Positions 61,647-63,138 of a DNA stretch of 64,000 bases are shown piece by piece. The number at the start of each line of letters is the position of its first letter. Position 1 is the first letter of the stretch. Under the pieces are notes generated by a model that was not told the DNA's origin, ran no database searches, and was given only the letters and a program-made list of their open reading frames with translations. Made by a program: the position numbers and the translations under genes. Source of the stretch: Draconibacterium mangrovi (GTDB lineage: Bacteria; Bacteroidota; Bacteroidia; Bacteroidales; Prolixibacteraceae); the NCBI RefSeq assembly GCF_010586825.1, contig NZ_JAAAGB010000001.1, forward strand, positions 1 through 64,000, given 5' to 3'.

Positions 61647-62150
61647 ATGAGTACAATTCAATTACACCGGGGCGATATTACCCAACTTGAGGTTGATGCC
61701 ATTGTAAATGCTGCCAACAAATCGTTGCTGGGTGGTGGCGGAGTCGACGGTGCCATTCACCGGGCAGCCGGCCCCGAACTTTTAAACGAATGCCGCCAGC
61801 TTAACGGCTGCGAAACCGGCGATGCAAAAATTACAAAGGGATACAATCTTCCGGCAAAATATGTGATTCATACCGTTGGTCCGGTTTATAACGGAGGCCG
61901 ATACAACGAAGCCGAGAAACTGGCTTCATGCTACCGCAGAAGTTTGGAAGTGGCGCTGCAAAACGGTGTAAAATACATTGCTTTTCCCAACATCAGCACG
62001 GGTATTTACGGCTACCCGAAACACGAGGCTGCACAAATTGCAACACAAACGGTAAAAGACTTTTTGGCGAATGATCACGAACTTGATACGGTGATATTTT
62101 GCGTGTTTGATGAAGAGAATTACTCCATTTACAATAATTTGCTTACCTAA
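61647..62150 (+). CDS. Macro-domain protein (O-acetyl-ADP-ribose deacetylase, YmdB type)
   Basis: The start at 61647 ([14 protein letters not shown]) gives 167 residues. In-frame ATGs lie at 61605 and 61560, but the macro domain begins at IQLHRGDI, and the longer N-terminus is not conserved in kind. The motifs [19 protein letters not shown] and [12 protein letters not shown] carry the ADP-ribose-binding loops and the conserved Asn/Gly residues. It binds or removes ADP-ribose. It follows the three-gene cassette by about 250 bases in the same direction, and a repeat array lies just after it. Confidence 0.93.
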
Positions 62151-62250
62151 CCGATGCTTCTAATGGTTTACAGGGGCACCTCTCCCATACAAAAAGTAAA
62201 TTTTCATATATAAAAAACACTATTCCCTGACATTTTGTAAAATCTCCCAC

Positions 62251-62426
62251 GGGAGAACCGGATAAATGTATGGGAGAACTACGTCCAAACGTGGGAGAAC
62301 CATCCAAGACCCCGGGAGAACAGCAAAAAACCGTGGGAGAACGCCTTATTTTTATGGGAGAACGGCCGCCGGACCAAGGAAAAGTGACTTTAATCGCGGG
62401 AGAACTTACAAGCAGCGTGGGATAAC
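62251..62426. repeat. 21-bp-periodic array of the core GGGAGAAC
   Basis: The 8-base core GGGAGAAC begins at 62251, 62272, 62293, 62314, 62335, 62356 and 62398. A variant GGGATAAC is at 62419, and a decayed copy AGGAAAAG is in phase at 62377. Every step is exactly 21 bases (two helical turns). The 13 bases between cores are unrelated to one another, except that the 3-4 bases before the core are often CGT or TAT. The frame of 62266-62472 would read GRT every seven residues, but no start or ribosome site supports it as a gene, and the AGA and GGG codons never vary. It lies between the macro gene and a convergent secreted-protein gene. Confidence 0.9.
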
Positions 62427-62448
62427 TCGATATCGGGGCAGGAAGATG

Positions 62449-63138
62449 CTAATTCTCCGACGCCTTAAGTAAATGTTTCATGTTTCGGTGGTAGGTATTG
62501 GTAAGGCGGGTATGAAAATAAGGGTACAAGAAGTGGTCGCGCAAAACAGACTCACTTTTAAAATAAGTACGATGTGTAATTTTTGTGTATCCTTTTCGCA
62601 TTTTTGTAAAAGTTAATTGCTGCTTTCCATGTGTAATATTATCCTCCACGTAGCTAAATTCAATTACTTTCTTTTTGTCGTCAACAGTTGTAATCTCAAA
62701 TGCGGTGGCTAGCTTTTTAACTTTCAAAACATTCAGGTTTAAATAAATTACCTGTCCCGGATCAATTCCATCCACGTGTCCGTTCGGATAGATCATCTCA
62801 TTATTACTTTTCGAAAACAACATTGCAAATGAAAACCGCGACGCATTCCAGGCAATCGATGGATTGGTATGCACGTAAAACGACCACACTTTGGGCAGGC
62901 TGTCTTTTATAACATATTCGCGTTCGTGAAAACGAAAACCAACGGTGCTGGCTGTTGGTTCCAACGATGGTTTTACATCCGAAAAAGTTTCGGTATTGTT
63001 TTTAATCTGGATCTGCACGAAATGCTCAACTTGTTCGCAGCCCACTTTGTCGAACTCAACATCGGCCAAATACATCTGGCCAAAGCTCAAACCTGCAAAG
63101 GAGTTAATAAACAAGAACAACAGCATTAATTTTTTCAT
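62449..63138 (-). CDS. Exported protein of unknown function
   Basis: The protein has 229 residues with a signal peptide ending near FGQM (residue 20). The first half after the leader has a beta-rich, Ig-like pattern (VEHFVQIQIKNNTETFSDVK). The second half (AFEITTVDDKKKVIEFSYVE, then THGKQQLTFTKMRKGYTKIT) looks like an SRPBCC/DUF1990-type ligand-binding fold, but this is only a pattern match. It converges on the repeat array, which lies within about 25 bases of its stop. Confidence 0.75.
   Translation of the reverse strand: MKKLMLLFLFINSFAGLSFGQMYLADVEFDKVGCEQVEHFVQIQIKNNTETFSDVKPSLEPTASTVGFRFHEREYVIKDSLPKVWSFYVHTNPSIAWNASRFSFAMLFSKSNNEMIYPNGHVDGIDPGQVIYLNLNVLKVKKLATAFEITTVDDKKKVIEFSYVEDNITHGKQQLTFTKMRKGYTKITHRTYFKSESVLRDHFLYPYFHTRLTNTYHRNMKHLLKASEN

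Follow-up and report, generated by a model that had tools for sequence, protein, structure and literature searches.

The 21-bp array of GGGAGAAC cores in the window, that is, the whole 64,000-nt stretch of Draconibacterium mangrovi DNA analysed here, is one copy of an intergenic element dispersed among Draconibacterium genomes. The reading that we favour, with a probability of about 0.5, is that the working part of this element is a row of helically phased docking sites on duplex DNA for a putative protein. Homologous scaffolds carry three different cores, GGGAGAAC, GTGATAAC and nGTAGGAC, placed in the same two-turn register and, in most sites, changed together in both arms of the element.

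Direct reading of the forward strand places exact GGGAGAAC cores at 62251..62258, 62272..62279, 62293..62300, 62314..62321, 62335..62342 and 62356..62363 (cores 1 to 6) and at 62398..62405 (core 8). Core 9 (62419..62426) is the one-base variant GGGATAAC; core 7 (62377..62384) has decayed to AGGAAAAG, with three changes, and reads GGGAAAAG in the G042 copy L177. An extra decayed unit, AGGAAGAT, lies in 21-bp register at 62440..62447. An earlier description made from the letters of the window (the sequence-only reading) had counted seven exact cores, one single-base variant and one decayed copy at 21 bp, all of which direct reading confirms. The array is far above chance: no exact 8-mer of the window forms a longer chain at 21-bp steps than the unbroken run of six GGGAGAAC copies, and in 60 dinucleotide shuffles of the window the longest 8-mer chain at this period was two (43 times) or one (17 times). 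At periods of 18, 19, 20, 22, 23 and 24, 8-mer chains in the window itself reach at most two. Tandem Repeats Finder, at a score of 30, did not report the array, and an Rfam search with E up to 1 gave no match overlapping the element and two elsewhere in the window, both under their cut-offs.

The feature had been taken to start at 62251, but it reaches further left, into an arm in which the cores are inverted and read on the reverse strand: TCTCCC at 62243..62248 (CTCCC at position -7 from core 1), TTCCC at 62223..62227 (-28) and CTCCC at 62182..62186 (-69). The innermost of these forms a central dyad with core 1, CTCCCACGGGAG, at 62244-62255. Judged from the comparison of occupied and empty macro sites and from the ends of the open reading frames, the whole element probably spans 62151..62448 on the forward strand, and so fills the gap between the stop codon of a macro-domain gene and that of a convergent gene. 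Both genes are flanks, outside the element: the former (Pfam Macro, start codon chosen by eye) occupies 61647..62150 on the forward strand, and the latter, encoding 229 aa with no match in Pfam, 62449..63138 on the reverse strand.

The exact paired-core GGGAGAAC pattern occurs nine times in the D. mangrovi genome, five times at the window array and four times at C11:732195-732327, an array just before a gene read as hydF (the names HydF, InfB and ABC-F are presumptive, having been assigned by reading the proteins). The two arrays have in common the leader GTAAATTTT...CCTGACATTTTGTAAA.TCTCCCAC and a near-identical first spacer, and the layout of conserved leader, array and tail recurs across copies. 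In the family-level set the exact paired-core pattern matched 10 of 140 genomes, nine from the genus itself and G084, whose match is to a different, purine-rich repeat. With a covariance model built on 14 copies, 13 of the 140 gave matches, all of them in the genus (the G057 match being counted uninspected); leaving out matches that overlap or lie on the reverse strand, each positive genome has between one and five places. At order level a triple-pattern search matched three of 393 genomes, D. mangrovi and two with other repeats, as judged from the matched letters. A scan of public genomes gave at least 119 stretches; among 13 examined of the 80 listed there was one clear relative, in Draconibacterium sediminis JN14CK-3 (L089), and the other 12, judged by eye, were not this element. 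Triple cores also turned up in viral contigs (6 and 4 stretches); all were examined by eye and are other repeats. A blastn search with window positions 62150-62450, at E up to 0.01, against 72,556 plasmid records and 50,697 phage records gave no matches; this, together with the lack of a rep gene recognisable by eye, led us to reject iterons of plasmid or phage origin.

Two further associations were observed among the copies. A gene for a 246-aa protein, MSDRQDYDACYDAF..., precedes arrays in four genomes with gene neighbourhoods that are at least partly different; the array after it has the core GGGAGAAC in three (L178, L181, L185) and GTGATAAC in the fourth (L212), and the one member searched has no Pfam match. 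Words of the ACCTTCAAGG type follow the array tails in L428, L430, L432, L212, L213 and L219, across two core families, and in several copies form a hairpin, AGACCTTCAAGGTTT...AAACCTTGAAGGTCT; these could be a terminator or a separate repeat.

Orthologous sites are found both occupied and empty. The hydF site is occupied in D. mangrovi (G000), G042, G060, G067, G070 and G037, and empty in G064, G040, G065, G068, G069 and more distant congeners. The stretch measures 92 bp when empty (G064, G040, G065) and 416, 416, 395, 374 or 312 bp when occupied, corresponding to inserts of 324, 324, 303, 282 and 220 bp with size steps of 21, 21 and 62. The macro site was classed in nine genomes, with seven more printed but unclassed: it is occupied in G000 and G042 (373 bp each), G040 (352 bp), G065 (289 bp) and G070 (371 bp), and empty in G064, G060, G067 and G069 (82-85 bp). 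Length differences between orthologous copies are mostly 21-bp steps. The left flank of the hydF site ends in TTTTTTTATG in G000, G042, G060 and G067, as it does in empty sites, in an alignment that misplaces the left end of the G070 copy and leaves out G037. Occupied sites show no certain duplication of the target, the best candidate, at hydF, being imperfect and T-rich. On a hydF gene tree of 20 rows, occupancy requires five changes, of which well-supported branches force only one. Because sites can be empty, no single copy is essential. The tie to the macro-domain or convergent gene proposed in the sequence-only reading is not upheld, the element being dispersed and the macro site empty in some congeners. 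Absence from relatives, with the spacing lost, had been named as grounds for doubting an array of binding sites: the array is indeed absent at single sites, but its spacing is kept wherever it is present.

Constraint within the element falls on the core and the step. Of the 93 spacers between cores in 15 arrays, 87 measure 13 nt and the other six 12 nt, every one of these at unit 5. When units other than the first are taken (77 distinct ones), the information is 1.6-2.0 bits at core positions 1-7 and 0.9 at position 8, and 11 of the 13 spacer positions lie under 0.5 bit. Orthologous copies at the hydF site differ at 34/782 core sites and 297/1083 spacer sites (leader 292/1325, tail 166/920, flanks 1765/9981), and those at the macro site at 34/476 and 165/660 (leader 220/944, flanks 831/7161), all as pooled and hence non-independent pairwise counts. 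Overall, cores change at about 4-7% and spacers at about 25-27%, making cores 3.5 to 6 times slower, a core rate lowered somewhat by construction because cores at both sites were labelled by likeness to GGGAGAAC (at most three changes in eight). The expectation that constraint would lie on core and spacing, and not on the spacer, is thereby borne out. The accompanying description of the spacers as unrelated goes too far: the spacer of unit 1 is strongly conserved from copy to copy, and others can be recognised as homologous by position.

The core word itself is exchanged between homologous scaffolds. The weaker covariance-model matches, in G035, G037, G040 and G070, are homologous elements with the core GTGATAAC, whose paired pattern is present in five of the 140 family genomes, all of the genus, and one G035 copy (L293) mixes GGGAGAAC with GTGATAAC. 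The third type, GTAGGA, came from the survey of periodic loci described below, at C11:842022-842211 in D. mangrovi. Matches to its triple-core pattern come from 15 of the 37 genus genomes, and those in G038 and G059 look like other repeats when judged from the matched letters. When 13 GTAGGA loci from 13 of these genomes were set in register, 12 had the dyad or a close variant, and in 11 of those 12 the first spacer was AAGACAAATGTAA or close to it, as in GGGAGAAC copies; the G037 locus lacks this likeness. As homologous elements have GTGATAAC or GTAGGAC instead, GGGAGAAC itself is dispensable. A reading of GTTATCACC as a DnaA box was dropped because it mismatches that box, TTATNCACA.

Most of the left arm follows the change of word. 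The 100 nt to the left of core 1 were surveyed for exact 5-mers in three core families. Inverted CTCCC stands at -7 in 15 of the 17 GGGAGAAC copies, at -28 or -29 in six and at -69 or -70 in five; inverted ATCAC occurs at -28 in all seven GTGATAAC copies, at -48 in five and at -69 in three; and the 11 GTAGGAC copies have inverted CCTAC at -9 and -30 (seven each) and at -51, -72 and -93 (two each). The family's own word accounts for 26/28, 15/16 and 20/22 of the left-arm matches, respectively. Words foreign to their family are few: two GGGAGAAC copies have ATCAC, in register at -69/-70; a single CTCCC is found at -67 among the GTGATAAC copies, and ATCAC appears twice at -74 among the GTAGGAC copies. 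In GTGATAAC copies the left-arm site nearest the centre is unswitched, remaining GGAGAGA-like (TCTCTCC, or TATCTCC in L223) and adjoining GGTGATAAC. The two arms largely change core together, at most sites and not at all of them. Of the dyad cells in 14 aligned copies, 89.9% pair, compared with 36-59% after sliding, and no pair of the 5' dyad is altered in both its members; in the GTGATAAC copies compared, the inner dyad is non-complementary.

Loci with other cores tend towards the same periods. The survey listed every locus where a 6-mer stood in step five times or more, or an 8-mer four times or more, at periods of 12 to 90. Over 1.264 Mb of the D. mangrovi genome it gave 12 loci, with periods of 21 (three), 41 (two), 42 (five), 84 (one) and 12 (one), so that 11 of the 12 fall at 21, 41-42 or 84; three first-order Markov resamples gave none. 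These loci are not all independent, because two 42-bp arrays have the common core TTTGGGA; three of the 11 in the first 864 kb lie within long open frames, and a 14-residue protein repeat in an open frame gives a period of 42. One locus was found in 400 kb of G067, at 42, one in 380 kb of G068, at 12, and none in 150 kb of E. coli K-12; the dense clustering is therefore a finding for one genome only.

Several arrays outside the family were recorded along the way. In G000:C11, 42-bp arrays have the palindromic cores TTTGGGAGTACTCCCAAAGC at 646959-647225 (L353) and TTTGGGAATACTCCCAAAG at 960819-961036 (L389), and further arrays of period 41-84 bp lie at 836314-836500, 636489-636658, 209060-209193 and 694142-694649, the last within a long open frame, with cores ATCGTACTGAGTACG, GCAAAATG, TGCGATAGG and CTTTCGTA. 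Arrays of 21 bp with palindromic-looking units also occur in unrelated bacteria, in a Spirochaetaceae MAG (L088) and a Tannerella MAG (L072 and L120), which surfaced only through the GGGAGAAC pairs that they contain.

A constrained word with a free spacer and a constrained step, present in both orientations and exchangeable with the step kept, fits a duplex read by a protein that contacts its neighbours. Each 8-bp core would then be one docking site, and the 13-bp spacer would serve only to set a distance of two helical turns between sites, placing bound subunits on one face of the helix, within reach of their neighbours; with inverted sites in the left arm, an assembly might grow in both directions from the central dyad. 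The three homologous cores may be bound by related proteins that differ in specificity, or by a single protein whose specificity has shifted over time. Any role that we infer for the element is most likely architectural or regulatory, as a local filament, insulator or decoy between genes. The constant register, the slow cores beside fast spacers, and the inverted cores in register all argue for docking sites, the last because an inverted copy is the same site on duplex DNA and a different one on a transcript. The lack of two-sided dyad changes in the 14 copies, the non-complementary inner dyad of GTGATAAC copies, and the clustering of loci with various cores at periods of 21, 41-42 and 84 point the same way. 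Against docking sites, co-switching arms would pair in a transcript too, most dyad cells do pair and folding slightly exceeds that of shuffles; switching is incomplete (the innermost left GTGATAAC site, and ATCAC at -69/-70 in two GGGAGAAC copies); the labelling of cores trims their rate of change; the fixed step could reflect the way in which the array is copied; some of the periodic loci lie in long open frames; and individual sites can be empty. The array of binding sites proposed in the sequence-only reading survives as the best account, of candidate sites with DNA likelier than RNA, and its RNA version is retained as a rival.

A bolder extension, which we regard as improbable on present evidence, would make the element part of a chromosome-wide modular phasing system, in which the recognised word would have changed on at least two occasions, at the majority of sites in both arms, with the two-turn register fixed. 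Were this so, geometry would be inherited as specificity changes, a co-evolving family of DNA-binding proteins would polymerise along phased sites to organise or insulate the Draconibacterium nucleoid, and there would be an explanation of why unrelated bacterial repeats keep to 20-21 nt (or 41-42, perhaps 52) despite differing sequences.

One alternative, to which we give a minor share of belief, is a small RNA: the element would be transcribed, and its repeated words or paired arms would titrate a protein that binds RNA, in the manner of CsrB/RsmZ and CsrA. The conserved leader and a dyad that pairs in most copies are consistent with this, as is the position of the hydF-site copies, by eye after an apparent terminator stem of the upstream gene. 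Folding is slightly better than that of shuffles, with z about -2 (-1.98 and -1.82; 7 and 12 of 200 shuffles equally good), and the accessible text of two papers reports 52-nt Bacillus repeats to be transcribed (PMC8161180, PMC8625621). Inverted cores on one transcript would, however, be different ligands, the dyad has no compensatory changes in 14 copies, and no Rfam family matched the element. Pairing within units (79 distinct units) yielded no coherent helix, the top excess (z 3.9, spacer positions 4 and 9) being equalled by deficits (-3.9). A CsrA sponge in particular was rejected, CsrA having been detected in none of the 37 genus genomes by a search whose control gave a signal in 3 of the 14 genomes known to have it.

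A mobile element that is non-autonomous, MITE-like and similar to BrickBuilt in layout, its cores serving as transposase-binding sites, is possible rather than probable as a full account. Copies at one to five places per positive genome, cleanly occupied and empty sites, and the leader, array and tail suit it. A 17-copy 21-bp array of another core, CTTCNGAAG, directly adjoins a Y1 (RAYT-type) transposase gene in G067 (L323:2238-2596), a further point in its favour. Y1 transposases are, however, present in 35 of 37 genus genomes and so do not discriminate, and no core array adjoins the four Y1 genes of D. mangrovi, where a REP/RAYT test found only one paired core, about 2 kb from one gene (L319). 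No transposase was recognised by eye adjoining six copies, no terminal repeat could be defined, and target duplication is at best the imperfect one at hydF. Cores are also conserved between same-site copies, which suggests selection after insertion. A mobile origin is compatible with docking sites; alone, it leaves the conservation of cores at fixed sites unexplained.

A neutral satellite, whose repeats would stay in step through replication slippage or unequal exchange, would account for length changes in mostly whole units, but slippage should homogenise the spacers as well, and the cores evolve several times more slowly, a difference that their labelling by GGGAGAAC likeness somewhat enlarges; we consider it very improbable. 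Coding of the arrays is also disfavoured by the reading frames. The sequence-only reading had seen a single open frame and argued from it for selection on DNA or RNA over protein; over the window array two frames in fact have one stop each and the third two. Counted over 17 copies, the whole array is free of stops in the GRT frame in three, in the GGA frame in nine and in the third frame in two, and a 20-nt unit that shifts the frame is present in seven. A translated repeat peptide, for instance from the 68-codon GRT frame at 62266-62472, can call on these open frames, the GGA frame above all, yet with no frame open in every copy it is hardly credible.

Guide arrays of the CRISPR or TIGR type were rejected, as no nuclease gene was recognised by eye in six neighbourhoods and the spacers here are inherited and homologous by position rather than newly acquired. 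Porphyromonas gingivalis is a member of the Bacteroidota. Its BrickBuilt, a MITE with a minisatellite, described by Klein et al. (PMC4596501), is in the accessible text similarly intergenic, present in several copies and built of leader, tandem array and tail, with a repeat number that varies between strains and a unit of conserved and less conserved parts. It differs in a 23-nt unit without spacer, against 21 nt here, in small terminal inverted repeats, in target duplications at three of four copies examined, and in having had promoter activity tested; the same text makes no mention of core variants on one scaffold (PMC4596501). The TAACTGA heptamer arrays of MacGregor (PMC4679880), found in five Bacteroidetes too, are also short conserved words repeated in intergenic DNA, but as far as the accessible text goes they are direct 7-mer repeats with no 21-bp phasing mentioned, in the main genome mostly just before start codons.

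Among the closest likenesses is that to the tandem repeats of 20-21 nt, constant in size, variable in sequence and of unsolved function, described by Subirana and Messeguer (PMC8161180). In the portion of that work available, the repeats carry a short characteristic signal (TCGCGG in Bacillus weihaiensis, for example), some are related to repeats of 40-41 nt, and the authors remark on the match to two turns of the helix and suggest, by way of explanation, a protein that polymerises or a small RNA. The present arrays agree in length (87/93 intervals of 21 nt, 6/93 of 20 nt) and in having several families per genome, here GGGAGAAC and GTAGGA at 21 bp and others at 41-42 bp. Those repeats are in general non-coding; here no frame is open in all 17 copies, and one is open in nine. 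Conservation is confined here to about 8 of 21 positions, and Tandem Repeats Finder misses the window array. A mirrored left arm, spacers homologous by position, empty orthologous sites and core switching are features of the Draconibacterium elements that find no mention in the accessible text of PMC8161180. The literature searched, which covered few subscription papers, contains no account of core switching on a constant scaffold, nor any of these Draconibacterium elements; the class of repeat is known, and core switching on one scaffold is without an earlier description in the sources as far as they were accessible. To a catalogue of repeats without assigned function (PMC8161180), the elements described here add orthologous sites both occupied and empty, a constrained core set against a free spacer, and natural exchanges of the core on a constant scaffold.
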